This document shows, one piece after another, positions 3,007 through 39,821 of a DNA stretch of 41,592 nucleotides. The notes below the pieces were generated by a model, which did not search any database, had not been told where the DNA came from, and was given only the letters and a program-made list of their open reading frames with translations. Numbering within the stretch: the stretch's first letter is position 1; each line of letters opens with the position of its first letter. The position numbers and the translations under genes were made by a program. Source of the stretch: Patescibacteria group bacterium (GTDB taxonomy: Bacteria > Patescibacteriota > Dojkabacteria > JAKAPS01); contig JANWIC010000017.1 of the NCBI GenBank assembly GCA_025450075.1, forward strand, positions 1 to 41,592. Direction: 5' to 3'.

Positions 3007-4956
3007 ATGATAATTATAGATATGTTCAAAAAAGTAAAACACACAATTCTTGGTGCTGTAATTTTCTTCATTATAGCACAGTGCATTTTCATTTTGCCAC
3101 ATGCAACATCGGTCTATGCTGCTGACTATTCTATCAATTACGGAATATCCTACACAATAAATCCGGATGGTGTTGCAACTGTTGATTATCACATTCAACT
3201 GACAAACTTAAGTGATACGCTGTATGTGACATCAGAAAGTCTGACAACAACTCAAACAGACATATATAACCTGAATGTAATAAATTCACTTGGGATTTCT
3301 CAAAAATTTACTGTTACAAAAACTTCTAATACTGCAACAATTACTACTACTTTTTCCAACCCTGCTGTAGGACAAGGTAGTTCAGATGACTGGCATATAG
3401 TGTATAACACAAAACAAATTGCATCGAATATCGGTCACACATGGAACATCCTTGTTCCAGGATTCGGTGACCGTGGAAGTCTGAATATTAATAATTTGCA
3501 AATTGCAATTACTGTCCCTAAAAACTTCGGAAACATCAATTTCGCTTCCCCTGCTCCATCCAAAACACAGGACAATGGTAATAATCTGACATATGTATAC
3601 CAAAGCGATAAGATTGATGCATCCGGAATCAATCTCATTCTTGGTGATGCTGAAACCTACAAATTTACATTCAATTATCCCATCACAAATACTGATTCAA
3701 ACACACAAGTATATACGATAGCTGTTCCACCTGATACACCATTACAATCCACGACTTTCACAAATATCTCACCTCAACCTGATACATTCACCATTAATAG
3801 CGATGGAGACTATATTCTCACATATAAATTGCCTTCGAAAAAATCCGGAACGATTCATGTTGAAGGAATATCCATTGTGTATGCAACCAATGGATTATTG
3901 CAAAAAAAGAGAACAACTCCAATTCAATTGTCCTCATCTGACCAGCAAACATATACCCAAGCGATGAAATATTGGGATGTAAATAACCCGCAGGTACAAG
4001 TTCTTTCTCAAAAGCTTACCGCAAATCTAACAAATAATACAGACAAGGCAAGGGCAATATATGATTATCTTGTCAAAAACTTCACATATAACAGAAGTGC
4101 TTTATTTGATAAAAATAGGCAAAGGAAAGGATCTTTGTACGCGCTTGCTCATCCGAAGGATGTCATTTGCCAGGAATATGTAGATACTTTTGTAGCTCTA
4201 GCAAGAGCTGCACATATCCCTGCTGTAATGGAGGCAGGTTATGGAAACACACTTTCTCCGCTTGATACACTTCCTGATAATGTCTTGCATGCCTGGGCAT
4301 TATATTATGATCCTGATTACGGTTGGGTACCCGTTGACCCGACATGGGGTTCTACTTCCGGGGAGAATTTCTTCGGCAATATTGGCTCAAGTCATTATGC
4401 ACTTGCTGCTTATGGACATAGTTCTACAGATCCTATCCTAGTTCTTGCATTTATTGCAAATTCTGATAGTTCAAATAATATTAAGCTGCTTCCGACAAAC
4501 GAGTCATATGTATCAAATCCAGGCTATTCCTTGGCAAGCGGAAACACAGTGTCGGTAAATGGCGGCTTTGCTTCAAACGGGATTGTCAGTATGACAAACT
4601 CCGGTAATAGGGTGTTATATTTGGACTATGCAAATTTAAGTGGTGTTGCAGGAAACCCATCCCTTAATCCCTTCCTTACTGATGCATATATCTTTCCCGG
4701 TATGAATGGGAATATTGGATTTAATGTAACATCTAACTTATTCAATTCTCAAAAAATTGAAGGACTCTTATCAGTCGCTTACAAAGGATATGGTGATAAC
4801 ATTCCGGTAAAAAAAGAGTATCCTCTTTCCATTATTATTACCCCCGGATGGTATGTAAAGCTCATTCCTCTCCTTGCGGTAATTTTAATTTTTGTGTTAT
4901 CATATACATTAGTGAACCTAGTTATCAGACTAAGGGGTAGGTTTGCTAAAAATTAA
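3007..4956 (+). CDS. Secreted, membrane-anchored transglutaminase-like protein
   Basis: The 649-residue product has an N-terminal signal sequence ending near VYA/ADY, a beta-rich region of about 300 residues, then a transglutaminase/protease-like core. The catalytic triad is visible as Cys388 (ICQEYVDTF), His428 (LHAWALYYD) and Asp444 (PVDPTWG). 'RAIYDYLVKNFTY' precedes it, as is usual in this family. Another beta-rich domain and a C-terminal membrane helix (about 616-638) followed by basic residues place the enzyme outside the cell and tethered to the membrane. Such proteins cleave or crosslink peptides; the substrate is unknown. The ATG at 3022 (MFKKVKH) gives a more typical signal peptide than the one at 3007. 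The PEP-synthase-like gene starts 15 bp after its stop. Confidence 0.85.
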   Translation: MIIIDMFKKVKHTILGAVIFFIIAQCIFILPHATSVYAADYSINYGISYTINPDGVATVDYHIQLTNLSDTLYVTSESLTTTQTDIYNLNVINSLGISQKFTVTKTSNTATITTTFSNPAVGQGSSDDWHIVYNTKQIASNIGHTWNILVPGFGDRGSLNINNLQIAITVPKNFGNINFASPAPSKTQDNGNNLTYVYQSDKIDASGINLILGDAETYKFTFNYPITNTDSNTQVYTIAVPPDTPLQSTTFTNISPQPDTFTINSDGDYILTYKLPSKKSGTIHVEGISIVYATNGLLQKKRTTPIQLSSSDQQTYTQAMKYWDVNNPQVQVLSQKLTANLTNNTDKARAIYDYLVKNFTYNRSALFDKNRQRKGSLYALAHPKDVICQEYVDTFVALARAAHIPAVMEAGYGNTLSPLDTLPDNVLHAWALYYDPDYGWVPVDPTWGSTSGENFFGNIGSSHYALAAYGHSSTDPILVLAFIANSDSSNNIKLLPTNESYVSNPGYSLASGNTVSVNGGFASNGIVSMTNSGNRVLYLDYANLSGVAGNPSLNPFLTDAYIFPGMNGNIGFNVTSNLFNSQKIEGLLSVAYKGYGDNIPVKKEYPLSIIITPGWYVKLIPLLAVILIFVLSYTLVNLVIRLRGRFAKN

Positions 4957-4971
4957 TTAACCATACTGTCC

Positions 4972-7578
4972 ATGGCATCCACACTAATTTCAACAATTGG
5001 TTTTCCTGACATTACCAAAAATGACGCAACAAAAGTCGGGAGCAAAGGAATGAATATTGCAGAATTGACGCGATTGAAAATTCCCCTTCCTCCAGGATTT
5101 GTTATAACTTCAGAGGCGTACTACTATTTCTTGGATATGGCAAGAATACGTGAAAAGATTCTGGATATTCTTACCAACCTGGATGTTGAAAACAGTAAAG
5201 AACTTGAAGAAGCATCCAATATTATCCAGGACATGATTATTAAATCAACTGTCCCCCCTGTTATTGAGAATGCTGTCTTAAAAGCATATTCCCGATTATC
5301 AGGATTTGTAAATACATATGTTGCCGTCAGGTCTTCCATTTCCTCAGAAGACTCGGATGAAAATTCTTTTGCAGGCCTTGCATCGACATTTCTCAATATT
5401 CGAGGAGGAAAAGATGTCACTCTTGCAATGAAAGCATGCTGGGCATCACTATTCGAACCTAACTCCATTTATTACAGATCAGCAAAGGGTATAAGCCATG
5501 TAAAAGTAGGCATGTCAGTAGTCATACAAAAAATGGTGCAGGCAGAAGTTTCTGGTACCATGCTAACTATGAATCCCATTACCTCAGATTCCTCCACTAT
5601 TATCATTGAAGGGATGCTGGGACTTGGAGATATCATGGAGGCAGAAGCACTTACTCCAGACCATTATGAAATTGAAAAATCTTCCCTTACGTTAATTGAT
5701 AAAAAAGTATACAAGCAAACATTGATGATGATTCGATCCACGAAACATGAGGAAAGTGAAGAACAGGTTAAAAAAGTACAAGTAGCACAAAAATGGCAAA
5801 ACCTACAAAAATTGGATGATAAAAAAATAGTTGAACTTGCAAGTATTGGAAAGGTAATCGAACAGCAATTTGGTGAACCACAGGATATTGAATGGGTGAT
5901 GGAGGCGGGGAAAATATATATCCTTCAAAGCAGGTCAATTGCTCCTTCAGTAGATATTCATCCACATCCGTTAGTAGAGAAATTGCAGGAAGAATTAGTG
6001 CAACAGCCAATAGAAGAAACTGTTCATATTGAAAGCGCACCGGCAAATGATTCGGCAAATAGCCAGATTATCCTTTCAGGTTCACCTGCAAGTGAAGGTG
6101 TTGCTGAAGGGTATGTAAAGATTGTCCGGCAAAATGATGATTTTATTCATTTAAACACGGGAGATATCCTGGTAATTGATCGCATTATTCCTGACTATAT
6201 CTTATGGATGAGAAAAGCAGCAGGAATCATTACCAATGAAGGTGGGGTTACGTCTCATGCAGCTGTACTTTCACGAGAATTTAAAATTCCTTGTATTGTT
6301 GGAACTGAAAATGCAACAGAAATATTATCAAATAATGATTATGTCAGAATTGATGGATCAAGCGGACAAGTTTTTTTGAAATTGATAGAAAAAAACCTGG
6401 AACACCCTTCCTCACCAATCAAACATGAGGAAGAACAAATTGATCAGCCTTTTGTTCATGATGAGACATCAGTACAGCAAGTCGCAATAGAAGAACCGGT
6501 AATTGAAAATATTCCACAAGTTCATCTTGCAGAAGAAACAATTCCAGAACCACTACTTCCCGTAGTTGAAGAAGAGCAGCTACTTCCTGAAAATGTTTCA
6601 GATTTTACTATTCCGCAAGAAACTATTTCTGAACCAGTCTATATTGAAGAAAAACCAAAAGAGACAATTCATCATATTAATATTCGCACAGCAACAAAGA
6701 TCTTAGCTAATCTCTCAGATAAATCATTAGCTCCAAGTATTGCACAAAAAGATGCTGATGGAATTGGATATATTAACGGAACTGAAATTTTGAATACTGT
6801 CATAAAGCGACATCCGGAAGCATATATCGAAGAAGAAATTGTAGAAAAATATGTTACGGAAACAGCAACTGTTCTGGAAACATTTTGTAGAGAATTCAAC
6901 CCCCGTCCAGTTATTTACAGACCTTCAAACCTGATATCCACTGAATTACAGTTTGATAGCGGAGTTTATGAACCTCATGAAGATAATCCAAAGCTTGGGT
7001 ATAACGGTGCAGTTAAATATATTGAAAATCCATCTCTATTTAATCTTGAAGTGGAAGCGATTAAAACAACCCGAAATAAATCCGGCTACAAGAATCTATC
7101 CTTAATGCTTCCAATGGTTCGAAATGAAAAAGATTTACGAGAGATAAAAAAAATTGTTACATCAAATGATTTAAAACGATCTTCCACATTCAAAATATAT
7201 TTGCCTATTGAAGCTCCGTCAACGGTTCTTCTTATTCATCAATTAATAGATATCGGTATTGATGGATTGTTTATCATGGCGAATACTCTTTCAGGGTTGT
7301 TAAATGCAGCCGATTTAGAAAACCCAAAGTACAAAAACTTTAATGTTTTTAATGAAGCATTTATGTTAAGTGCTGAGGTGATTATTAAGACGGCTCATAA
7401 GAACAAGATCCCTTCTGGTGTCATTCTACAAGGTAAAGAATTTGACTCTGATGCCTTATCTGAAATTATTGAATGGGGTGCAACATATATTTCCGTTGAT
7501 CCATACTATATTGAAAAAACGAAGGCCACTGTGGCAGATATTGAAAAAAATCTTATCTTATCTCGACGAAAAAAATGA
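4972..7578 (+). CDS. PEP synthase-like protein with degenerate C-terminal barrel
   Basis: The 868-residue protein has the three-domain plan of phosphoenolpyruvate synthase. The ATP-grasp domain (about 15-330) looks intact: GSKGMNIAEL, VAVRSSISSED, GTMLTMNP and DIEWVMEAGKIYILQSR. The swivelling phosphohistidine domain keeps His429 in EGGVTSHAAVLSREF. An 80-residue Glu/Pro-rich linker follows. The TIM-barrel domain (about 640-860) aligns with PpsA (YEPHEDNP, FNLEVEAI) but is altered. The PpsA catalytic cysteine position (GICGQG) is Ile818 in GVILQG, the metal-binding SND is Ala770-Asn771-Thr772, and the GFRG arginine is Asn in GYNG. Enolase overlaps by 4 bp, so it may act on PEP or pyruvate, but loss of these residues argues against normal PEP synthase activity. 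It could transfer phosphate to another acceptor or act as a regulator. Confidence 0.8.
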   Translation: MASTLISTIGFPDITKNDATKVGSKGMNIAELTRLKIPLPPGFVITSEAYYYFLDMARIREKILDILTNLDVENSKELEEASNIIQDMIIKSTVPPVIENAVLKAYSRLSGFVNTYVAVRSSISSEDSDENSFAGLASTFLNIRGGKDVTLAMKACWASLFEPNSIYYRSAKGISHVKVGMSVVIQKMVQAEVSGTMLTMNPITSDSSTIIIEGMLGLGDIMEAEALTPDHYEIEKSSLTLIDKKVYKQTLMMIRSTKHEESEEQVKKVQVAQKWQNLQKLDDKKIVELASIGKVIEQQFGEPQDIEWVMEAGKIYILQSRSIAPSVDIHPHPLVEKLQEELVQQPIEETVHIESAPANDSANSQIILSGSPASEGVAEGYVKIVRQNDDFIHLNTGDILVIDRIIPDYILWMRKAAGIITNEGGVTSHAAVLSREFKIPCIVGTENATEILSNNDYVRIDGSSGQVFLKLIEKNLEHPSSPIKHEEEQIDQPFVHDETSVQQVAIEEPVIENIPQVHLAEETIPEPLLPVVEEEQLLPENVSDFTIPQETISEPVYIEEKPKETIHHINIRTATKILANLSDKSLAPSIAQKDADGIGYINGTEILNTVIKRHPEAYIEEEIVEKYVTETATVLETFCREFNPRPVIYRPSNLISTELQFDSGVYEPHEDNPKLGYNGAVKYIENPSLFNLEVEAIKTTRNKSGYKNLSLMLPMVRNEKDLREIKKIVTSNDLKRSSTFKIYLPIEAPSTVLLIHQLIDIGIDGLFIMANTLSGLLNAADLENPKYKNFNVFNEAFMLSAEVIIKTAHKNKIPSGVILQGKEFDSDALSEIIEWGATYISVDPYYIEKTKATVADIEKNLILSRRKK

Positions 7579-8897
7579 AAATTACCTCATTAACAGGTAG
7601 TCAGATTCTTGATTCTCGTGGTAATCCTACCTTACGTGTAAAAATTATTCTTGAAAACGGTATTGTTGATTATGCTGAAGTACCATCAGGTGCTTCAAAA
7701 GGTTCAATGGAAGCTTTTGAACTCAGGGACGGAGATCCAGTACTATATGAAGGGATGAGTGTCCTAAAAGCATGCCATAATGTCGCCACCGTATTTGATA
7801 GGATTAGAGATTATGATGTAGAAAATCTTCGGGAAATAGATCAGACAATGATTGAATTTGACGGTACTAAGAATAAAGAACGTGTCGGTGCAAATACCAT
7901 GCTTGGGATTTCATATGCATGCCTGAAAGCAGGAGCAAAATTGCAAGGAATACAATATTATCAGTGGGTTAATCAGCTTTTCCGAGAATATTTTAAAAGG
8001 GAAATACAGATATCTCTACCCTGTCCACTTTTTAATATTCTGAATGGAGGAAAACATGCAGATAACGGGGTTGATTTCCAAGAATTCATGTTTGTACCTC
8101 TGCGGTATCATGATTTGGAAACAATCAAAAACCAAGGATATACCTGCACCTCAGCCGATGCACAAAGAAGAGTTATGATGGGTGCAAATGTCTTACATGA
8201 ATTAAAGAAAATTATTAATAAGTCAGGACTTTCTACTGGGCTTGGTGATGAAGGAGGGTATGCACCTGCAGTTAGTGGTGCAAAAGATGCATTGAATCTA
8301 ATTTGTGAAGCTATGACAAATGCCGGATACAAACCATATGATGATGCAAGTCTTGGAATTGATTGCGCTAGCAACTCTTTTTATAACGCTGAAAAACAAT
8401 GGTATGAAATTCACTCAACAGAAGGAATGCAGACTTTTGATGCTGACGGAATGATAAGTTACTATCGATATTTTTTGGAACACTACCCTATTATTTATCT
8501 GGAAGATTTTTTGCAAGAAACTGATATGGACGGATTTGCACGGATGACACAAAGCAGTGAAGGTGCAAGAATCATGTGCAGTGCAGATGATTTAGTTGTT
8601 ACAAATCCGCAATTGGTTAAGCAAGCAATTGATAAAAAAGCAATGAATGCCATGATTGTCAAACCAAACCAGATAGGCACATTTTATGAGACATGTGAAG
8701 TCGTGAACCTTTGTGTTGATAACCATATTATCTATGTTCCATCTCATCGCTCAGGTGAAACAAACGACAGTATCATTACTGATATTGCTGTCGGACTTGG
8801 CGCAACTTTTTTGAAAGCTGGAGCTCCTCAAAGAGGAGAACGTGCAGCTAAGTATAACCGGCTGATGGAGATTGCAGACATAGTTGCATTGTCATGA
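7575..8897 (+). CDS. eno: Enolase
   Basis: The 440-residue protein converts 2-phosphoglycerate to phosphoenolpyruvate. Family landmarks are intact: SGASKGSMEAFELRDGD near the N-terminus; NGGKHADNGVDFQEFMFVP; GLGDEGGYAP; the metal ligands in GIDCASNSFYN, YLEDFLQETD and SADDLVVTN; the catalytic lysine region IVKPNQIGT; and PSHRSGETNDS. Some positions differ from the commonest form (IDCASNSFYN instead of LDVAASEFY), but no key residue is missing. Its ATG overlaps the PEP-synthase-like stop by 4 bp and its stop overlaps the next ATG by 4 bp, so translation is probably coupled within a lower-glycolysis operon. Confidence 0.95.
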   Translation: MKITSLTGSQILDSRGNPTLRVKIILENGIVDYAEVPSGASKGSMEAFELRDGDPVLYEGMSVLKACHNVATVFDRIRDYDVENLREIDQTMIEFDGTKNKERVGANTMLGISYACLKAGAKLQGIQYYQWVNQLFREYFKREIQISLPCPLFNILNGGKHADNGVDFQEFMFVPLRYHDLETIKNQGYTCTSADAQRRVMMGANVLHELKKIINKSGLSTGLGDEGGYAPAVSGAKDALNLICEAMTNAGYKPYDDASLGIDCASNSFYNAEKQWYEIHSTEGMQTFDADGMISYYRYFLEHYPIIYLEDFLQETDMDGFARMTQSSEGARIMCSADDLVVTNPQLVKQAIDKKAMNAMIVKPNQIGTFYETCEVVNLCVDNHIIYVPSHRSGETNDSIITDIAVGLGATFLKAGAPQRGERAAKYNRLMEIADIVALS

Positions 8898-10456
8898 AAA
8901 AAGACCTGAATACAACTTTTCCATTTGGAGTTTTACTTATCCTTGACGGATGGGGCGAGGCTTCGTATAGCGAGTATAATGCTGTTAAACTTGCCCATAC
9001 ACCACATATGGATTATCTGTATAATCATGGTTATTCTACATTTCTTGGCGCATCGGGAGAAGATGTCGGACTTCCCAATGGAACTATTGGAAACAGTGAA
9101 GTCGGGCATTTAAATATTGGTGGGGGTCGTGTTGTCATGCAAGAAGTGCTTAAAATTAATTCTGAAATTACCAATGGGAAATTTTTCCATAATCCTGTTC
9201 TTCGGGATGGAATACAACATGCAATAGATACTAATAAGAGTATCCATATTATTGGTCTTTTAAGTGATGCATCTGTGCATTCATCGAATGAACATGCTTA
9301 TGCCATATTAAAACTTTGTGCTGATATGGGGGTACATGATCGTGTATATATTCATGCAATTACTGATGGAAGAGATACACCAGTTGATTCTTCCTATCGA
9401 TATATAACTGAGCTACAAGTAAAAATGCAACTGTATCATGTCGGTGAAATTGCCTCAGTTATGGGAAGATATTATGCAATGGATCGTGACCAAAGATGGG
9501 ACAGGGTTGAGAAAGCATACCACTCTCTTCTCTCACCTGACGAACCAATTTTTGACAATCCGTTCGATGGAATTCGAACATCGTATAACGATCACAAAAC
9601 TGATGAGTTTATTCTTCCGTTTCATGTAAAAGTAAAGGAAATGGTAAATGCGCAAATTCATGATGGAGACACTGTCATTTTTTTTAATTTTCGTGAAGAC
9701 CGCGCTAGGGAATTAACCATTTCATTCCTCAAACCTGATTTTCATGAATTTCCAATTCAACCTATTCATCCATATTTCATTACTATGACTGAATACGAGA
9801 ATGGGTTATGTGAGCATATTGCGTATGAGCCTGAAAAAGTAGAAGGTACATTGTCAGAAATATTGAGTTTAGAAGAATTATATCAATTCAAAATAGCTGA
9901 AACAGAAAAATATGCTCATGTTACATACTTTTTTAATGGAGGAAGAGAAGTTGAATTCCCATTGGAAGACAGGTATATGATTCCTTCTCTTAAGATTCCC
10001 ACATTTGATTTAGAACCACAAATGCGTGCAAGAGAAATTGCAGATGAGCTAGTAAAACGGATTGAAAGCAAAAAGTACAAACTTCTTGTTGCAAATCTTG
10101 CAAATGCCGATATGGTTGGCCATACCGGAAACCTACAAGCAACAATAAAGGCATGTGAGGTAGTAGATTCGTGTGTTGGAAAAGTATATGAAGAAGTCAT
10201 AAAGTTTGGTGGGTTTTTAATCATTACAGCTGACCATGGAAATGCTGAGGTAAAATATCTGGAAGATCGAAAACAGATCTCAACAAGTCATACATGTAAT
10301 CCTGTGCCTTTTATATATACATCCCCTTTTGCTTCAGATAAAATAAAAGTTGATAAAGGGAGGTTAGGAGATGTTGCACCGACCATACTAAATAGGCTAG
10401 GATTAATGAGAAGTGCAGGAATGACAGGTCGTGATCTATTACATACATATGATTGA
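8894..10456 (+). CDS. gpmI: 2,3-bisphosphoglycerate-independent phosphoglycerate mutase
   Basis: The 520-residue protein interconverts 3- and 2-phosphoglycerate, the step before enolase. It has the full alkaline-phosphatase-superfamily pattern: LLILDGWGEA with first metal Asp; IGNSEVGHLNIGGGRVV with the phosphoserine; HAITDGRDTPVDSS; MGRYYAMDRDQRWDR; NFREDRAREL; the second metal cluster near NADMVGHTG; and TADHGNAE with SHTCNPVPFIY. Length matches the family (about 510 residues). The 4-bp overlap with eno and 8-bp overlap with the PfkB gene place it in the middle of the operon. Confidence 0.95.
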   Translation: MKKDLNTTFPFGVLLILDGWGEASYSEYNAVKLAHTPHMDYLYNHGYSTFLGASGEDVGLPNGTIGNSEVGHLNIGGGRVVMQEVLKINSEITNGKFFHNPVLRDGIQHAIDTNKSIHIIGLLSDASVHSSNEHAYAILKLCADMGVHDRVYIHAITDGRDTPVDSSYRYITELQVKMQLYHVGEIASVMGRYYAMDRDQRWDRVEKAYHSLLSPDEPIFDNPFDGIRTSYNDHKTDEFILPFHVKVKEMVNAQIHDGDTVIFFNFREDRARELTISFLKPDFHEFPIQPIHPYFITMTEYENGLCEHIAYEPEKVEGTLSEILSLEELYQFKIAETEKYAHVTYFFNGGREVEFPLEDRYMIPSLKIPTFDLEPQMRAREIADELVKRIESKKYKLLVANLANADMVGHTGNLQATIKACEVVDSCVGKVYEEVIKFGGFLIITADHGNAEVKYLEDRKQISTSHTCNPVPFIYTSPFASDKIKVDKGRLGDVAPTILNRLGLMRSAGMTGRDLLHTYD

Positions 10457-11441
10457 TACACTTGGAGAAAAATTGGATGTTTTTGTCATAGGAGGAGCGA
10501 TGATGGATACTTTCATCTTCCCTGAAGAAGGTGTATTGCAGTCAGAGAATGGCAAAGATTTGATCGCATTTACCTATGGATCAAAAATTCCCATTTCACG
10601 AGTACATTCTGATATTGGGGGTGGAGGCGCAAATACTGCAGTAGGTCTTGCAAGACATGGTTTAAAAACTTCACTTCATACAAAACTTGGCAAAGATGAA
10701 TATGCGGATATTATTAGAAAAAGACTTAAGGAAGAACAGGTTAGCACTACACATATTAAAATGGGGACAATCCAGACCGGTATGTCCATTATTCTTCAAG
10801 GGCTTGGGAGAGATAGAACAATCTTTACGTACAGGGGAACAAATTCAGAAATGAGTTCTTCTGATATACCATCTGATATATACAAACATACCCGATATAT
10901 TCTCGTAAATGCACTCTATGATTCAACTTCTAATATGATTATGGATATCGTACAAAAAACTAGAGAAAGTGGAGTAAAAGTTGCATTATCTCTTGGCAGA
11001 AGCGAAATATATTTCCAGGGCAACCATCTAGTTGAAATTATGCCTGCAATCGACCTGTTAATTGTAAATGAGGAGGAATCCCAAGCACTGTATCATGTTC
11101 TGACAAATAACTTCCATAAAGAATTTGAAGAATGTGATGCATGTCATAAGACAACAAATGAAATATTGCAATTCCTTCATGACAGTGGTGTTGCAACCGT
11201 AGGTGTTACCCTTGGTGCATCTGGAGTAAAATTCATTGATGAACATAATACGTTGTATGCATATCCCTCCAAAAAAGCTGAGGCTGTGAATACGACAGGT
11301 CTTGGAGATGCCTTTTTTGCAGGATTTTTAGCATATACTGTAATGGGAAAAAGTATTGAAGAGGCAGCATTACATGGTATTGATAATGCAGTTTCAGTAA
11401 TGGGATATTTAGGTGCACAAATTGGACTTTTACGATCATGA
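10449..11441 (+). CDS. PfkB/ribokinase-family sugar kinase
   Basis: I chose ATG 10449 (MIDTLGEKLDVFVIGG) because the beta-strand DVFVIGGAMMD follows directly; an upstream ATG at 10431 would add six residues. The 330-residue product has both PfkB signatures: GGGGANTAVGLARHG near residue 55 and the C-terminal NTTGLGDAFFAGFLAY, with the catalytic Asp in GLGD. Such kinases phosphorylate sugars, nucleosides or sugar phosphates with ATP. The acceptor cannot be told from sequence. Position after gpmI suggests a fructose-phosphate, ribose or nucleoside substrate feeding glycolysis, which is inference. Its ATGA overlap with the acyl-CoA synthetase gene is 4 bp. Confidence 0.88.
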   Translation: MIDTLGEKLDVFVIGGAMMDTFIFPEEGVLQSENGKDLIAFTYGSKIPISRVHSDIGGGGANTAVGLARHGLKTSLHTKLGKDEYADIIRKRLKEEQVSTTHIKMGTIQTGMSIILQGLGRDRTIFTYRGTNSEMSSSDIPSDIYKHTRYILVNALYDSTSNMIMDIVQKTRESGVKVALSLGRSEIYFQGNHLVEIMPAIDLLIVNEEESQALYHVLTNNFHKEFEECDACHKTTNEILQFLHDSGVATVGVTLGASGVKFIDEHNTLYAYPSKKAEAVNTTGLGDAFFAGFLAYTVMGKSIEEAALHGIDNAVSVMGYLGAQIGLLRS

Positions 11442-13519
11442 TTAATCTTTCAACTATACAATCAATTGCTGTTATTGGAGCATCAAATGAACGAAAGAAG
11501 CTTGGCTATAGTATATTGAAAAATATTTTAGATTACGGATTTTCTGGTAAAGTTTATCCAATTAATTTAAAGGAAGAAGCAATTGCAAATCTTCGTTCAT
11601 ACAAATCCGTTATGGAAATTTCCGAACGGATTGATCTTGCTGTCATAGCTATCCCTGCACCATTTGTTAAAGAGGTTCTTCAGGAATGTGTAAAAAAAAC
11701 AATTCCTCTTGTCATCATCATTTCTGCGGGATTTAAAGAAACGGGAGATGAAGGAAAGAAATTGGAAATTGAATTGCTACAAACTATAACCCATTCTCAA
11801 ACTCGAATTATCGGTCCGAATTGTTTAGGAATGATCCTTGCACAATCTCATGTAAATGCTTCATTTGCAGCAAATTTTCCTTCATATGATCCGATATCAT
11901 TTATCTCACAATCCGGAGCATTAGGAACTGCGTTTCTCGATTGGATTGATGAAAATGATCTTGGTATTGACTCATTTATCTCAATTGGAAACAAATCGGA
12001 TATTGATGAAAACATCTTGCTGGAGCAATTGGATAATCAAAAGGTTATTGCTTGTTATTTGGAAGATATTAAAGACGGGAAAAAATTAATGGAAATTGGA
12101 TATATTAAAAATCAAAAGCGACCGGTACTTGTATTAAAACCTGGAAAAAGTGAAGCAGCTGCAAAAGCGATTTCATCTCATACAGGCTCTTTGGCGGGAG
12201 GCCATGTTGCTATTAGCACGGCACTGAAACAATCTGGATATATTGAAGTAAATACAATTGGTGAATTGTTTAACAAAATTAAAGCGTTTGCATGGCAGCC
12301 AATACCAAAAAGCAATAAGATAGCAATTGTGACCAATGCAGGAGGACCTGCAGTTATCACAACCGATCTTATTATTGAAAAAGGAATGAGACTTGCAGAC
12401 ATAGATGAGAAGACACATGCTCTACTTCAAGAAAAATTACCAAGAACCGCAAACATGCATAATCCCATTGACGTTATTGGTGATGCACTTTCTGACAGGT
12501 ATGTAGCAGCAATGGAAGCAGTATTGCAAGAAGATGAGGTGTCAGCACTTCTTGTGCTACTTACTCCTCAAATCATGACAGAAATTGAACTGACAGCAAA
12601 GCTTATTGGAACTATGACAAAATATAATAAGCCGATTATTGCCTCATTTATTGGAGGTACATTAGTAGAAAAAGGCATGAAATTGCTTGCCAAAGAAAAA
12701 ATTCCTGCATATCATTTCCCTGAAACTGCAGTCGATGTATTATCATCAATGGTTTGGTATGGTGATTATGTTAAAAAGCATGAAACTTCCCTTGTTGCCT
12801 CTTCCCAAAGCATGTATTATGCAGCTTCTCATGGGTATATAAGCGAGAAATACATAGAAGCGCAAAGACATAATCTGAAAGCATTCAGTCCGAATATTTC
12901 TGAACAGATTGCAAAACGATACAATATCCCGGTACCCGAATCATCTATATGTGCCACAAGTGATGAAGCATTAACACATATCTCGCAAACAGTTCACTAC
13001 CCTTGCGCTTTAAAGATATCATCACCTACTCTCTTGCATAAAAGTGATATTGGTGGTGTTATAACCGATATTCAAGATGATAATGGTGTACGAGTAGCCT
13101 TTGATAAACTTGAGGGCATAATAGAGCACCACAGCATCTTTGATGCGCATATAGAAGTACAGCCATATATAACTGACGGGTTATATACGATAATTGGTGC
13201 ACAACGTGATGCAAATTTTGGTGTGGTCCTCTTATTTGGGCAAGGAGGTATCTATACTGAACTCATGCATGATACCACAACCCGCATTGCACCTATTTCA
13301 AAAAATATGACACTTGAAATGATTGATGAAACGAAAATTGCCTCCATCCTTCATGGAATCCGTGGACAGGACCCACTTCCCCTTGATGGGATCGTTCAAA
13401 CTTTGCAAGCAGTCCAGGATTTAATGCTGGATTACCCTTTTATTAGTTCAATTGATATTAATCCGTTGATTGTTGGGAAAAGCGGATCTTTTGCTGTAGA
13501 TATTAAGATCCTTTTATAA
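11438..13519 (+). CDS. Acetate/acyl-CoA synthetase, ADP-forming, fused alpha-beta
   Basis: The 693-residue protein contains, in order: a CoA-binding Rossmann domain (IAVIGASNERKKLGYSI); two succinyl-CoA-synthetase-like ligase domains (IIGPNCLGM, SQSGALG and the phosphohistidine region SSHTGSLAGG); and a C-terminal ATP-grasp domain (ALKISSPTLLHKSDIGGV, LFGQGGIY, IDINPLIV). Enzymes of this type make ATP from ADP, phosphate and acetyl-CoA, releasing acetate. They are common in archaea and fermenting bacteria without phosphotransacetylase/acetate kinase. The fusion of alpha and beta parts is one of the known architectures. It ends the rightward carbon-metabolism operon, which would give substrate-level ATP. 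Its last 17 bp overlap the convergent phosphomutase gene. Confidence 0.92.
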   Translation: MINLSTIQSIAVIGASNERKKLGYSILKNILDYGFSGKVYPINLKEEAIANLRSYKSVMEISERIDLAVIAIPAPFVKEVLQECVKKTIPLVIIISAGFKETGDEGKKLEIELLQTITHSQTRIIGPNCLGMILAQSHVNASFAANFPSYDPISFISQSGALGTAFLDWIDENDLGIDSFISIGNKSDIDENILLEQLDNQKVIACYLEDIKDGKKLMEIGYIKNQKRPVLVLKPGKSEAAAKAISSHTGSLAGGHVAISTALKQSGYIEVNTIGELFNKIKAFAWQPIPKSNKIAIVTNAGGPAVITTDLIIEKGMRLADIDEKTHALLQEKLPRTANMHNPIDVIGDALSDRYVAAMEAVLQEDEVSALLVLLTPQIMTEIELTAKLIGTMTKYNKPIIASFIGGTLVEKGMKLLAKEKIPAYHFPETAVDVLSSMVWYGDYVKKHETSLVASSQSMYYAASHGYISEKYIEAQRHNLKAFSPNISEQIAKRYNIPVPESSICATSDEALTHISQTVHYPCALKISSPTLLHKSDIGGVITDIQDDNGVRVAFDKLEGIIEHHSIFDAHIEVQPYITDGLYTIIGAQRDANFGVVLLFGQGGIYTELMHDTTTRIAPISKNMTLEMIDETKIASILHGIRGQDPLPLDGIVQTLQAVQDLMLDYPFISSIDINPLIVGKSGSFAVDIKILL

Positions 13520-30430: not shown

Positions 30431-31126
30431 ATGTTAAAGCTAAACAACCATGAATTGAGGATCCTTACTTCAATTATCCTTAAAGAGAAAGCGCGCTATT
30501 CCGATTTAAATAGCGAAGATCTTCCAACAAATCAGTTCAACTATCATCTTCAGTTACTTCTCCAGGAAGGATTTATTGAAAAGGACAATAATATTTACGT
30601 ATTAACAGAAAAAGGAGAAGAGCTAGCTGGGGATATCGATATATTTGCACATGATATTGAACGTCAGGGAAAAATATCAGCTGTAGCAATATGCAAAAAG
30701 ATGGAAAATGATGAAGAGCTGTTTTTGATGCAAAAAAGGAAGAAACAACCATATTATGGTTATTGCGGTTTCCCTGCAGGAAAAATGAAATATGGCTCTT
30801 CATTTGCTTCTGAAGTGCTAAGAGAATTAGAAGAAGAAACTGGTATGACAGGAAAAGCAGAACTTAAACAAATTTCACATGTTTTGGTAAAAAATTTAAA
30901 AGGTAAAAAAATCGTTAATGATTTTACCTTCTTTAAATTTCTCATAACAGATTTGAAAGGACACTTTATCCAAGAAAGTTTGGAGGGAATTAACCAATGG
31001 ATGACTGTTAAACAGATTAAAAAAGAAAAGCATCTCTTCCCTGGAGTTTTATATTCCATTGATCTATTAAAGCAAAAGAATATTTCTTTTAAAGAGATTA
31101 CTGAAATCTACAAGCAAGAGAATTAA
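30431..31126 (+). CDS. Nudix hydrolase with N-terminal winged-helix domain
   Basis: The 231-residue protein starts with a winged-helix-like region (about 1-65: ELRILTSIILKEKARYSDL ... LLLQEGFIEKDNNIYVLTEKG). A Nudix domain follows from about 78. The Nudix box runs from Gly117 to Met139 with RELEEETGM intact; the first Glu of the box (G-x5-E) is Ser123. The REUxEE metal-binding part is complete, so catalysis is plausible. Nudix enzymes cleave nucleoside diphosphates linked to another group. The winged helix may bind DNA or act as an interaction surface; NrtR-type regulators carry it on the other end. It is divergent from the HD-ART gene. Confidence 0.88.
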   Translation: MLKLNNHELRILTSIILKEKARYSDLNSEDLPTNQFNYHLQLLLQEGFIEKDNNIYVLTEKGEELAGDIDIFAHDIERQGKISAVAICKKMENDEELFLMQKRKKQPYYGYCGFPAGKMKYGSSFASEVLRELEEETGMTGKAELKQISHVLVKNLKGKKIVNDFTFFKFLITDLKGHFIQESLEGINQWMTVKQIKKEKHLFPGVLYSIDLLKQKNISFKEITEIYKQEN

Positions 31127-32041: not shown

Positions 32042-34393
32042 ATGGCATTCCCTGATGGATATAATCTTTTGCCAATAAATACTATTCAAAATGTTGACAA
32101 AGATTCTCCACTCCCTGTATATGATTTCGCCTCCAGAAACAAAAATAAAGAGAAAGAATTTCTTCGATTAGGATTAACGATTCGGCGGATAGATTTAGAA
32201 GTTCCTGAGATCCAGCATGATGATCCTGATGTCGTGCTTGAAGCAAAAGCAAGAGAAGCATTTAGAAGAAATAATGGCCCTATTTTAGTTGAAGATACAT
32301 CATTAAGCATTGATGTTTTAGAAGGAAAACCAGGTCCTTATGCTGATGCATATACCAAGACACAAACTCAGAGAAAGCTATTATGTGAATCATTACCTAA
32401 AAATAACCGTGGAGGCATATTCCGTGTTGGTCTTGCCATATCACCTGATGGAGTACATGTATTAAGCAGGATTGCTGAAGTAAGAATACAAATTTCAAAA
32501 GAACTTCGAGGAGCAGGATTTGGTTTTGATGATATGGTTGAACCAGTTGATCAAAAAGAAGGAAATGGAAAAATACGAGAAAAACTAAAGACATATGGAG
32601 AAATGACACCTGAGGAAAAGGATTTGTATTCACCCAGACGAATTGCAGTCGAGATGCTTATCCATGAACCTTTTGAATTATCAGCAAGAACTGTTTTTGC
32701 TCTTCCTGATATCCCAGCATATCAAATGTCCTTTATTGATTCTCAAGAGATAGAGAAGAATAATGCTGCAGTTGCTTTTGCACGAAACGTTTCTGGATTA
32801 AAAAAGACTGATAAACATGCAACTATTTCCATAACACACGATGACCTTCTTCCCATTTATAGACAACCAATAGGCTTAAATAATGAAGTGATTCGCTATA
32901 CAAGTAATTTAGAAGAGCATAGTCAGGGGCTCATTATCCTTGCGCATGGAGATACCAAAATGCAGGATAATTTAAAACCGAAAAGAATCTTCTCTACAAA
33001 ACCGGGAGAACCTTTTGTATTTCAAATGACACCAAATAGTATTAAAAAGGCACTTGCTGCACGAGCAGTGGAATTTGCATTAATGCATAGTGATGCAATG
33101 CACCAACATATTCTTGATATTCAAGAAGGGAAAATCCCACATGTTCCCCGGCCGCATGTCAGATCTGAAACACTGGAAAGTCTATTTGAAATGAAGGTAG
33201 AAACAGATAATATCACTGGAAAACACTCAATAGTGCAAGCTGCACGAAATACTGTTGCAACGGCATCAGTCGGGTACCCTAGAATGTTTTCATCAACTGT
33301 AACCAGTAGAAAAGCTGCATCTAATTTTGGACTATTCATGAAATCTGGAAATATTGTATCTTCACTTTTCAGCTTAGGAGGTATGCCAATGACATCCGGA
33401 TCTGCTGATACAATCGCTACTGCAGCCTCATCATATATGCGATCTTGGATCCCGCATAATGGATTTTATGCAGGAAGCCTTGAAAGACAACTTTCTCTTT
33501 TTGCTGAAGCAAAACAAAAGTTAATTGATGCTAACCTTCCTCAGGAAATCTACTCAATGTGTTTGCAACAAATTGGACTTAGTATTGCAAGTGAAAACCC
33601 AGACAAATTAGCGGAAGATGCGCAACAGTTTTTCACACTAGGTGGTCGGGCTATTCGAATTTATACAACTAACCCCAATATTCGAGTTGTCGATACTGCA
33701 ATTGCAATTAGAAAAAGAGTCGGACCAGAAATGCTCATTTGCGTCGGTCCAATTGTAAATGCGGAACAAGCAACAATGTTAAAAGAAAAAGCTGATGTCA
33801 GAATGTTTTTAGTAGGACATGGCGGTGGAGAAACGTGTACTTCCTTAAAAGGTGGAGGAGCAGCTAATGCAATTACACTTTTATATGAACTTTATCTTAA
33901 TCCATTATTTGATGATTGCATCATAGGCACTGAAGGTGGAATTGGAGATGGATTCGGTCCATTACTTCCTATGGTTGATACATTTTCTTTAAACCAAAGT
34001 GGAGTTCGTGGAGGATTTGAAATATCCGGAGGATTATTCTTAAAACATGTCAGCGGTGAATATTGTCTTCCAAACCATGGAAGTGCAAGCGCCTTTACAC
34101 AAGCTATCGAATCTCTTATATATCCTGATATTGCTAAAAAAAGAATGAGCCTAGATGGGAAGGTAATAAATATTGAGGGAAAACCAAATTATTCAATAAA
34201 ACACGAATCAGATCATAGCATTGTAGATTCGTTCAGATGGAAGCGAGGAGTCGCAGGAACTGCACTCGCAGACCTACAATCGCAAAGCATATATGAACTT
34301 CGATCACTTGTGCAAAATACAGGTATCTTTCCATTGGTAAAGATTAGCCCTGATGCCTATTATATTGCTGGACCACAAAGACAATTATGGTAA
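32042..34393 (+). CDS. Fusion of Ham1/ITPase-like domain and IMPDH-like barrel
   Basis: The 783-residue protein joins two nucleotide-enzyme folds. Residues about 25-215 match the Ham1/RdgB inosine/xanthosine triphosphatase family: FASRNKNKEKEF, EVPEIQHDDPDVVLEAKARE, VEDTSLSID (Glu84, Asp85), GKPGPYADAY and GAGFGFDD. The usual SHR motif near the end is Ser197-Pro-Arg. Residues about 410-765 match the IMP dehydrogenase/GMP reductase barrel: GGMPMTSGSAD; IRKRVGPEMLICVGPIVNAEQA; the catalytic loop GGETCTS with Cys599; GTEGGIGDGFGP; and RWKRGVAGTALADL. CBS domains are absent, and residues 220-410 are unassigned. The first domain would make IMP or XMP and the second could oxidise or reduce it; this coupling is inference. 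The next gene overlaps by 7 bp. Confidence 0.8.
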   Translation: MAFPDGYNLLPINTIQNVDKDSPLPVYDFASRNKNKEKEFLRLGLTIRRIDLEVPEIQHDDPDVVLEAKAREAFRRNNGPILVEDTSLSIDVLEGKPGPYADAYTKTQTQRKLLCESLPKNNRGGIFRVGLAISPDGVHVLSRIAEVRIQISKELRGAGFGFDDMVEPVDQKEGNGKIREKLKTYGEMTPEEKDLYSPRRIAVEMLIHEPFELSARTVFALPDIPAYQMSFIDSQEIEKNNAAVAFARNVSGLKKTDKHATISITHDDLLPIYRQPIGLNNEVIRYTSNLEEHSQGLIILAHGDTKMQDNLKPKRIFSTKPGEPFVFQMTPNSIKKALAARAVEFALMHSDAMHQHILDIQEGKIPHVPRPHVRSETLESLFEMKVETDNITGKHSIVQAARNTVATASVGYPRMFSSTVTSRKAASNFGLFMKSGNIVSSLFSLGGMPMTSGSADTIATAASSYMRSWIPHNGFYAGSLERQLSLFAEAKQKLIDANLPQEIYSMCLQQIGLSIASENPDKLAEDAQQFFTLGGRAIRIYTTNPNIRVVDTAIAIRKRVGPEMLICVGPIVNAEQATMLKEKADVRMFLVGHGGGETCTSLKGGGAANAITLLYELYLNPLFDDCIIGTEGGIGDGFGPLLPMVDTFSLNQSGVRGGFEISGGLFLKHVSGEYCLPNHGSASAFTQAIESLIYPDIAKKRMSLDGKVINIEGKPNYSIKHESDHSIVDSFRWKRGVAGTALADLQSQSIYELRSLVQNTGIFPLVKISPDAYYIAGPQRQLW

Positions 34394-35235
34394 TTAATAA
34401 TGATGGCGGTATACAGTCATATACTGCCATGTTTAATCAAGCAATAGAACATAATTTCACTAACTATAAAGCAATTGTACAGATGGCTCTAAAAGGAAGA
34501 AGTTTTGCTGATACATTTCAAGGTGTTTTTCAGGGCCATCAAATTACGGTAGTAACCGGAGCACATAAGAGTGAAAATGCAAATGCTGCTCTGAATAATC
34601 TTTTGGATACAGATACTTCATATATTTATCTTATCGAAGGATGGAAAAGGGGACCTGTGATTGAAGGGATTAATTTTTCTAAAAGGATTGCCATAGATGC
34701 TGATATTATTGATCCTATTATCGCAGTCTTTCTTCCAAGCCTTATTAAATGGTTTTATCAAACCCAAAAAGGAAGTGAATATTCCTTAGACTTTATATGC
34801 ACTGTCCTCATGATTGAAATATATGCATCATATTTCAATATTAACCCTAATAACCCTGAACTTTCCATCATATTTCAAAAAAATGAACAACAGCTAATGA
34901 AGATGTTGGATGATTATGAAGCATTTAAAAAGGCACATTCATTAGATGAAATAAAGCAAACACATCTAGATATTATGAAGGGATTAGTTAATGTATCAAA
35001 TATGTTTAGTTTTCAGCGATTATGCAGGTTTTTAGAACAGGTTGACAATGCAAGACCAATTCTTGCATATTGTGGATATTTACATTTCCCACTGTTTTTC
35101 CTTTCCTCTGTTCCTGATGAATATATATTAAGTAAGGAAGAAATTGATACACTCATTGAAGAACAAAAGATTATTGACGAAAATATTTACAGTAGATGGG
35201 AAAAACTAAATCAAAGTGCAGATAATGTTAGTTAA
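34387..35235 (+). CDS. Unrecognised protein coupled to the Ham1-IMPDH-like gene
   Basis: The 282-residue product is cytoplasmic by appearance, with a mixed N-terminal and a helical C-terminal half. Three short motifs, VVTGAHKSENANAAL, YIYLIEG and ILAYCGYLHFPLFF, sit where the H, E and H motifs of the EreA/ChaN/TraB (TIKI) superfamily would be. The similarity is weak and I do not assign it. Its ATG overlaps the previous stop by 7 bp, so translation is probably coupled and the two products likely work together. A complex hairpin lies after it, before the convergent acyltransferase gene. Confidence 0.7.
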   Translation: MVINNDGGIQSYTAMFNQAIEHNFTNYKAIVQMALKGRSFADTFQGVFQGHQITVVTGAHKSENANAALNNLLDTDTSYIYLIEGWKRGPVIEGINFSKRIAIDADIIDPIIAVFLPSLIKWFYQTQKGSEYSLDFICTVLMIEIYASYFNINPNNPELSIIFQKNEQQLMKMLDDYEAFKKAHSLDEIKQTHLDIMKGLVNVSNMFSFQRLCRFLEQVDNARPILAYCGYLHFPLFFLSSVPDEYILSKEEIDTLIEEQKIIDENIYSRWEKLNQSADNVS

Positions 35236-38093: not shown

Positions 38094-39821
38094 ATGGAAC
38101 TGTATCCTGATCGACCAACTGGGATAGATAATGATACAAAAGTACAATATTCTCCTTCACCTGAAGAGCAATTGCTTGTAAATGAAGCAGATGATTATCT
38201 TTCAAAACTGCTTGAACCAGTTCTAAACATTGATATAAAGACTTTTACTCTCTTTGGTATAGAATATTTTTTGACTGATGAAGGGTATATGCTTCTTCAT
38301 TCAATATATAAAGAAGCAACTAAAAATGGCCTTCTTGAATTTGCATCATTTCGAAAAACAAGAACAGAAAATCTACAATGGGTCATTTCTGTGTTAGACC
38401 GAATTGATTTTTCTCAATTTAGTAAACAAAGAAGAGATGAAATTGCAGGAATAATTTCAAAAGCTGCAGAGCAAAGGCTTCAAAAGTCTTTTTCTCCACT
38501 GCTTGCTGATTCGAATTTTAATACAGAAGGAATTGAAGCACCAATGAAATATAATGTGGTGCTCGAACCTGATAAGGCGATTGATAAAGTTGCAAAACTT
38601 CGTGAGATAAAGCGGACTCTTATGCAAGAAAGAACTAAATATAAAAATCAAAAAGCAGTATATACCTTATATAGTGCATATATTCAAAAAATGAATGTCA
38701 ACATAACCTCTCTCATTTCAGATCTTGTTCATATTTCTGACAAATATAACCGAAGAGGAGCGGATTTTGACAAAACTAAAGCTCTTAAGGAGCAGATTCC
38801 GTATGGTACAAGTTTTAAAGGTTTCGGTAGAAATCGTAACTTAGCAAGGCTGGATCGGTATCTGCACGGTAAAGGATTAATAAGGGAAAATGGAGATTAT
38901 ACGCCGATTGGTAAATCAGCAAGAGAAACCGGAGAAAAATTATCTGATCAGCAAGGTATAATTCTTCCGGATATGGATACATACACAACTGAGGCATATG
39001 GAGAAAATTTTCCTGTTGATGCTGAGATGTTAAAAGAAATGTTTGAGGAAGTATTGCGAGCAAATGGTCTTTTACGAAGTGAAGAAAATCCGAATGGCTG
39101 GACCGTATATCTTAGTTCTAAAGCTCGCAACTTGTCAGTTAACACAGAAAGCCTTGCACATAATCCTTCCGGAAAAAGAATCAATATACCTGTCGATTTT
39201 GTAAGAGCATTTTATGGTATAAAGCCAAACCCATCCGTTATGGCTACTATTGCTCATGAGATGACTCATATTTTTAGAAGAGAAGTAATGAAAGTAATTA
39301 AACTGCAACTTTATTCCGATAGAATCAGTCCTCCAAGAGGTTCAGTTGTATCTGAAGGAGCAGCAGTTCGTGCAGAAACGCAAGTACAAACTGAGGTTTT
39401 CAATTTGCCAAGAGAAATAAATGGGGATTATTTAGCTGCTGCAATGAGACGACTTGAAGGAGGAAATTTTCTTGAATGTGTGAAGGCTTTTTATGATTCA
39501 TATATCCACCATTTCCCCCAAGAAGATAGAAAAGAGGCATTAAAGCTTGCTATATCACGTACCAGAAGGATCTTTAGGCATACTCAAAATCTTGAGTCTC
39601 ACGATCCTGAGGTGACACAAAGCGAGCCATTATATTACCTGGAGCAAAGCCTAATTACACTTATTGACCCGTATGGAGTGATCTCCCCGTATCTGCTTCC
39701 ATTAATTCAAAATGGAGTCATTTCAATAAATTCAATACTATCAGTAGCGAATAAATTTCAATTAATTTCTGAAATCCTTACTCCTGATGTAATACGAAGA
39801 ATAAAAGAAATGAAGAAATAA
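38094..39821 (+). CDS. Zincin-like metallopeptidase, possibly DUF1704-related
   Basis: The 575-residue protein is helical in its N-terminal half. It has HEMTH at residues 388-392 (TIAHEMTHIFRRE) and SEGAAV with Glu421, 29 residues after the second His. This spacing and a glutamate in an EG(A/L)A motif fit gluzincin-type peptidases such as DUF1704/tyrosine carboxypeptidase-like proteins. SFKGFGRNRNLARLDRYLHG before it may match the region that DUF1704 proteins have ahead of the zinc site. No signal peptide is seen, so it is probably cytoplasmic. A TATAAT at 38064-38069 could be its -10 box, but no -35 is obvious. Substrate unknown. Confidence 0.65.
   Translation: MELYPDRPTGIDNDTKVQYSPSPEEQLLVNEADDYLSKLLEPVLNIDIKTFTLFGIEYFLTDEGYMLLHSIYKEATKNGLLEFASFRKTRTENLQWVISVLDRIDFSQFSKQRRDEIAGIISKAAEQRLQKSFSPLLADSNFNTEGIEAPMKYNVVLEPDKAIDKVAKLREIKRTLMQERTKYKNQKAVYTLYSAYIQKMNVNITSLISDLVHISDKYNRRGADFDKTKALKEQIPYGTSFKGFGRNRNLARLDRYLHGKGLIRENGDYTPIGKSARETGEKLSDQQGIILPDMDTYTTEAYGENFPVDAEMLKEMFEEVLRANGLLRSEENPNGWTVYLSSKARNLSVNTESLAHNPSGKRINIPVDFVRAFYGIKPNPSVMATIAHEMTHIFRREVMKVIKLQLYSDRISPPRGSVVSEGAAVRAETQVQTEVFNLPREINGDYLAAAMRRLEGGNFLECVKAFYDSYIHHFPQEDRKEALKLAISRTRRIFRHTQNLESHDPEVTQSEPLYYLEQSLITLIDPYGVISPYLLPLIQNGVISINSILSVANKFQLISEILTPDVIRRIKEMKK

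Follow-up and report, generated by a model that had tools for sequence, protein, structure and literature searches.

The window, by which we mean the whole stretch of DNA analysed (41,592 nucleotides), derives from a Dojkabacteria-class (Patescibacteria) assembly of 1.1 Mb that is 93.5% complete. An earlier note, made from the letters alone, had placed a single purine-related fusion protein at 32042-34393 on the forward strand, and these coordinates are right: the open reading frame is intact and encodes 783 residues. The gene, its parts, the residues that matter below and the adjoining gene are as follows.

32042 to 34393, forward strand: fusion gene for Ham1 domain, extension and IMPDH-like barrel, 783 residues (open reading frame, Pfam, AlphaFold, Foldseek).
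32126 to 32662, forward strand: Ham1/ITPase domain, residues 29-207 (Pfam PF01725); NKNK, EIQ, VED and FGFDD kept, SHR replaced by SPR.
32663 to 33271, forward strand: extension particular to the family, residues 208-410; no independent match; a shorter form occurs in separate barrels.
33272 to 34390, forward strand: CBS-less IMPDH/GMPR-like barrel, residues 411-783 (profiles, PF00478 in homologues, Foldseek).
33662 to 33664, forward strand: Tyr541, at the position of the NAD-ribose Asp (D248 of E. coli GuaB); 60/60 barrels have Tyr.
33836 to 33838, forward strand: Cys599, the catalytic Cys (GuaB C305); 60/60 barrels.
33932 to 33934, forward strand: Glu631, at the position of the IMP-ribose Asp (D338 of GuaB); 58/60 barrels have Glu.
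34175 to 34177, forward strand: Glu712, equivalent to GuaB E415, T. foetus Glu431 and GuaC Glu289; 60/60 barrels.
34387 to 35235, forward strand: 282-residue open reading frame overlapping the fusion stop by 7 bases; no assignable family.

AlphaFold modelled the full-length protein from a 44-sequence alignment with a mean pLDDT of 86 and a pTM of 0.84, and in a Foldseek search of the PDB this one chain matched both ITPase/KomB and IMPDH structures. Profile matches and model together show one polypeptide predicted to comprise a Ham1 domain, an extension that belongs to the barrel, and the barrel itself, without CBS. The Ham1 fold that had been recognized in the first part is borne out by Pfam (PF01725, 78.1 bits against a gathering score of 22.5; E = 1.1e-21, residues 29-207) and by fold matches to KomB, human ITPA and MJ0226 (TMt 0.77-0.85, about 0.8 for the human ITPase); the score against the TIGR00042 equivalog, 63.7 bits, is far under the cut-off of 145. 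The catalytic acidic residues (the VED/ADD pair) are kept, VED being residues 83-85. SPR does stand in place of SHR, as had been observed, and most other fusions have SMR or NMR there. Because SHR is present in just 10 of 28 other Ham1-like proteins compared, with SPR and SMR common, the phylum does not hold strictly to this motif, and on sequence comparison SPR, taken alone, is no mark of a new function. The same genome holds a second, degenerate Ham1-like gene (G000 contig C7, L138:2382-2936, forward strand; 184 residues), which reads REDHS and TSWDR where the usual motifs would be expected.

Residues 220-410 had been singled out as matching nothing familiar. They have no match of their own, as stated, and they do not form an independent domain: residues 208-410 are modelled confidently within the full chain, residues 208-412 folded alone reach a pLDDT of 57, and related barrels encoded as separate proteins carry a shorter counterpart at their N-terminus. 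By sequence and model residues ~208-410 are thus a family-specific extension of the barrel rather than a third domain.

The barrel itself is too divergent in the window protein for single-sequence detection, a Pfam scan of the protein giving no barrel family match. Its homologues match PF00478 (IMPDH/GMPR) at 2e-15 to 5e-21, profile searches reach IMPDHs in the PDB at 1.7e-19 (separate-barrel profile) and 2.9e-10 (fusion profile), and the window model aligns with IMPDH structures at TMt values of mostly 0.7-0.78 over ~390-450 columns (Foldseek, PDB), all of which upholds the IMPDH-type barrel proposed for the last part. CBS domains are missing, again as claimed. Among the motifs on which that proposal drew, Cys599 aligns with the IMPDH catalytic Cys and the EGG (631-633) of GTEGGIGDG with the ADGG motif of IMPDH; GVAGT is not conserved, homologues having AARTLAD at the same place, and drops out as an IMPDH-type motif. 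Assignment to a known enzyme fails by wide margins: the window protein has no match to the TIGR01302 equivalog, for which homologues score 42-60 bits against a cut-off of 481.5, and for the GMPR equivalogs the separate barrels reach at most 54 bits against cut-offs of at least 344 and the fusions have no match.

As a single query the window protein matched nothing in genome and viral collections; this copy is too divergent for such a search, and an alignment of barrels was required. Scanning 84,980 species genomes with that alignment gave 65 loci, which together with the window and one further locus (L063) yielded 34 complete fusions and 26 complete separate barrels of ~500 residues. The fusions come mostly from Chloroflexi and otherwise from WWE3, Dojkabacteria and Paceibacterota; the separate barrels come mostly from Microgenomates-type Patescibacteria, plus two Chloroflexi. 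Four genomes of the window's class carry a full-length fusion and three others a separate barrel. The distribution is patchy: in a 380-genome sample of the phylum the barrel was detected in six (E <= 1e-30, separate-barrel profile), though divergent copies, that of the window among them, can escape this profile. L063:1498-3054 (reverse strand) encodes a still more divergent, 518-residue relative of the separate barrels on a long branch, without a Ham1 neighbour and adjoining a sigma-factor-like gene. L108 was considered as a separate barrel starting within the extension and was rejected: the start of its reading frame sits at a 15-base run of N, upstream of which the reading continues into the extension, without a Ham1 domain.

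In a tree, all family barrels form one deep group outside canonical IMPDH and GMPR. A Ham1 gene directly adjoins nine of the separate barrels, on the opposite strand and divergently transcribed; these nine fall within one clade of ten, and the fusions constitute a different clade, sister to it. The remaining separate barrels have no Ham1 gene within the flanking DNA examined. The idea that the two domains always occur together thus stands for the fusion clade and, as adjacent genes, for part of the other, and fails for the rest, where they are unlinked. That the two are fused in one clade and adjacent in another nonetheless makes a strong, if not universal, functional link between Ham1 domain and barrel, and the nine gene pairs sustain the connection that the earlier note had drawn. 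Between close relatives dN/dS is 0.03-0.11 for the barrel, 0.04-0.17 for the Ham1 domain and 0.06-0.23 for the extension; each part of the fusion, extension and barrel included, is under strong purifying selection and is maintained.

Besides Ham1, no neighbour is conserved around the fusions beyond the local synteny of related genomes. At the window locus the 282-residue reading frame (34387-35235) probably shares a transcript with the fusion; it has just a sub-threshold match to Ph1570 (E = 0.005) and no homologue beside other fusions, and is a possible partner of the fusion found only here. A Shine-Dalgarno scan was uninformative. Upstream, at 30431-31126 (forward strand), a winged-helix plus NUDIX protein represents a second nucleotide-related gene nearby, one not conserved at other fusion loci. 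Farther away lie a co-directed run of central-carbon genes (3007-13519, forward strand: transglutaminase-like, PPDK/PEP synthase, enolase, iPGM, PfkB kinase and acyl-CoA ligase of the ADP-forming type) and a 575-residue open reading frame without a Pfam match (38094-39821, forward strand).

To compare active sites, 60 family barrels were aligned to E. coli GuaB and GuaC (GuaB numbering is used). Cys305, Thr307, Glu415, Gly387 and Ser390 are kept in 60/60 barrels, and invariance extends to the GG loop, at its first Gly, and to the Gly and Ser of GMGS; the flap Arg-Tyr dyad of IMPDH is present in none of the 60. The Asp with which GuaB and GuaC each contact the NAD(P) ribose (D248) is Tyr in all family barrels, and the ADGG Asp (D338), likewise common to the two enzymes, is Glu in 58 of 60. 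Crystal structures of IMPDH show the nicotinamide ribose held by the former Asp, with contacts to IMP otherwise shared by all IMPDHs (PMC4342496). With Tyr for the NAD-ribose Asp and Glu for the IMP-ribose Asp, therefore, it would be unsafe to presume either the substrate or the cofactor. Further contacts have shifted: near the 5'-phosphate, S303 is Arg in most fusions, Gly in separate barrels and Glu in the window, and S362 is Gln in fusions, the window's included, and Arg in separate barrels; the equivalent of Tyr385 is Asn in the window barrel, and at the Asn277 position the window barrel has Pro and most others have Gln. An ancestral IMPDH/GMPR has been proposed to use the Thr-Glu pair alone, the Arg-Tyr flap being added later, and GMPR lacks the dyad (PMC2525682). 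The family's combination of Thr-Glu with no flap would parallel this ancestral route by analogy, and we caution against taking it as proof of antiquity, because the flap could have been lost.

The reading that we prefer, tentatively and with confidence somewhat short of even, is that the fusion is a bifunctional purine-nucleotide enzyme belonging to a new deep clade of the IMPDH/GMPR superfamily, with net conversion of IMP to XMP most likely in Chloroflexi. A catalytic purine-nucleotide enzyme is the best reading because of the fold, the linkage, the conserved Cys, Thr and Glu, and the selection on all parts. The Ham1 domain would hydrolyse (d)ITP or XTP to (d)IMP or XMP and pyrophosphate; the barrel would bind a purine monophosphate, at whose C2 the invariant Cys would attack to form a covalent adduct, with water or ammonia handled by the invariant Thr-Glu pair rather than by the missing Arg-Tyr flap. 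The two halves would share metabolites, the barrel making or using IMP/XMP and the Ham1 domain returning wrongly phosphorylated ITP/XTP to the monophosphate. Sequence and model thus predict purine C2 chemistry on a monophosphate, and the exact barrel reaction stays a proposal. For the suggestion in the earlier note that the fusion makes an unusual purine, nothing was found in support, and a plain IMPDH fed by Ham1 is called into question by the replaced ribose and dinucleotide contacts and by the window's genome, in which neither canonical IMPDH nor GMP synthase (GuaA) was found.

The purine pathways of the carriers bear on the direction of the reaction. No canonical IMPDH was found in nine Chloroflexi carriers with genomes of 3-8 Mb, and GuaA is present in eight of these nine. 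As a control, a mixed profile that detects canonical and new barrels (E <= 1e-20) was run on 150 genomes from the Anaerolineae-class to which one carrier (G444) belongs: 94 had a canonical-type IMPDH, one (G444) the fusion, none both and 55 neither. Absence of GuaB is thus not rare in these metagenome-assembled genomes (MAGs); the 55 genomes with neither barrel type may reflect incompleteness or a further source of XMP. The probability that nine carriers would all lack GuaB by chance is ~0.37^9, near 1e-4, and since the carriers are related and MAGs are incomplete, the link between this absence and the fusion is suggestive only. In Chloroflexi the barrel would most likely convert IMP to XMP, as a stand-in for the absent GuaB upstream of GuaA, and it probably replaces IMPDH there. 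The patescibacterial carriers mostly lack both canonical IMPDH and GuaA, neither being found in the Dojkabacteria, WWE3 and Microgenomates-type carriers tested. With no GuaA in the window's genome and like carriers, XMP would be a dead end, and in these GuaA-less Patescibacteria either direction would be feasible, the GMP-reductase direction fitting the window's genome equally. The two loci whose barrels branch closest to that of the window (L107 and L108; Paceibacterota, Levybacteria) come with a canonical guaB beside guaA, so the barrel is no simple IMPDH replacement in that sub-clade.

An alternative is that the Ham1 domain acts as a sensor, binding a purine triphosphate without cleaving it and regulating the barrel in place of the regulatory CBS module. 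The absence of CBS from the fusion is consistent with this, and KomB, one of the best structural matches, is a Ham1 protein that receives a signal by binding dITP (PMC12948488) and in our alignment reads VEH where active enzymes have VED. VEE or IEE replaces VED in 27 of the 34 complete fusions, apparently those of Chloroflexi (loci L072-L106), and this substitution suggests that hydrolysis may be weakened or lost in them. However, VED is kept in the window protein, in other patescibacterial fusions and in the adjoining separate Ham1 partners, and Glu in place of Asp may still allow activity; we consider the sensor unlikely.

A shade less likely is the GMP-reductase direction, with the barrel deaminating GMP (or dGMP) to IMP, the Ham1 domain removing ITP and the IMP going on to AMP. 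The missing Arg-Tyr flap points this way, as do the short, GMPR-like flap of the separate barrels and an EGK motif and Glu that match those of GuaC. The window's genome has PurA, without GuaA and canonical IMPDH, which makes a route from GMP through IMP to AMP coherent. Yet among 14 genomes searched PurA was found only there and in G034, and not in the other fusion-bearing Dojkabacteria and WWE3 genomes tested; Chloroflexi carriers with GuaA and no IMPDH need XMP made rather than GMP removed; and the NAD(P)-ribose Asp common to GuaB and GuaC is Tyr here. The PurA-like protein of G034, a patescibacterial genome with a separate barrel (L139:2756-4303, reverse strand; 515 residues, PF00709 E = 7e-40), is longer and far more divergent than usual.

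Instead, the two halves might form a sanitation system for deoxy- or damaged nucleotides apart from GTP synthesis, with dITP/dXTP and dIMP/dXMP, or some other purine, as the substrates of both. The change of the IMP-ribose Asp to Glu is placed to alter recognition of the 2'/3'-OH, and the patchy distribution and the co-occurrence with canonical guaB and guaA in the window's nearest relatives would suit such a specialist. Nothing direct indicates a deoxy preference, however, and the missing canonical IMPDH of the Chloroflexi carriers would go unexplained, so that we regard this as improbable. Membership of a Kongming-like nucleotide-sensing defence system is much less probable still: KomB is the best Ham1 structure match, but the fusions have no conserved partner genes, PADLOC gave no match in the genes tested (with a 2023 library that may lack Kongming), and no relative was found in viral contigs (four queries) or in phage or plasmid collections. 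An assembly or frame artefact joining two genes has a negligible chance of being right: the carriers found are, with few exceptions, MAGs or contigs from metagenomes, but a chance or artefactual origin is refuted by 33 further complete fusions, of conserved length and with low dN/dS, in independent assemblies that span several phyla.

The bifunctional enzyme, if real, would matter for a drug target of textbook standing: in IMPDH the residues that contact IMP and NAD are regarded as invariable. A deep clade occurring where ordinary IMPDH is missing, with the chemistry residues kept, both ribose anchors replaced and the water-activating flap gone, would reveal an alternative means of carrying out C2 purine chemistry. 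The Thr-Glu mechanism proposed for a primordial IMPDH would become testable in a natural enzyme, and fusion and gene pairs would connect barrel chemistry to ITP/XTP clean-up. A bolder formulation, which we think doubtful though not far-fetched, is a third catalytic type of IMPDH/GMPR that is flap-less and CBS-less, uses the Thr-Glu route, has rebuilt ribose and cofactor sites and Ham1 in place of CBS, and is the sole XMP-former in several Chloroflexi lineages.

While the superfamilies themselves are known, clade and fusion are new as far as the literature searched, in which no description of either was found, and no curated family covers the fusion, in keeping with the earlier impression that it was undescribed. 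The Ham1 half shares with Ham1/RdgB/ITPA (PF01725) the fold, the NKNK, EIQ, VED and FGxD motifs and a score above the Pfam cut-off, and differs in its fusion to a barrel, in SPR for SHR and in a TIGR00042 score far below cut-off. KomB resembles it in Ham1 fold, in a catalytic motif altered in some members and in a purine triphosphate ligand, whereas KomB acts as a protein of its own, together with an NADase, a partner not found here; in Kongming (KomABC) deaminase and NADase genes lie next to the Ham1 gene, and around the fusions no conserved neighbours were seen. Other Ham1 fusions, for example in cassava brown streak virus polyproteins, which turned up as structural matches of the model, join Ham1 to another protein, with no IMPDH-like part. 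A viral fold library also gave matches over ~226-255 columns to Pandoravirus proteins that bear the name GTP cyclohydrolase and are possibly another Ham1-type fusion. The barrel shares with GuaB (PF00478, TIGR01302) the (beta/alpha)8 fold and the catalytic Cys, Thr and Glu, but has no CBS and no Arg-Tyr flap, has Tyr and Glu for the ribose Asps, a changed Asn277 equivalent and an extra N-terminal extension, and lies in a separate deep clade. From GMP reductase GuaC it is set apart by Tyr for the NADPH-ribose Asp, Glu for the GMP-ribose Asp and scores far below the GMPR equivalog cut-offs; with GuaC it shares the lack of CBS and of the Arg-Tyr dyad, the Cys/Thr/Glu set and the EGK motif.
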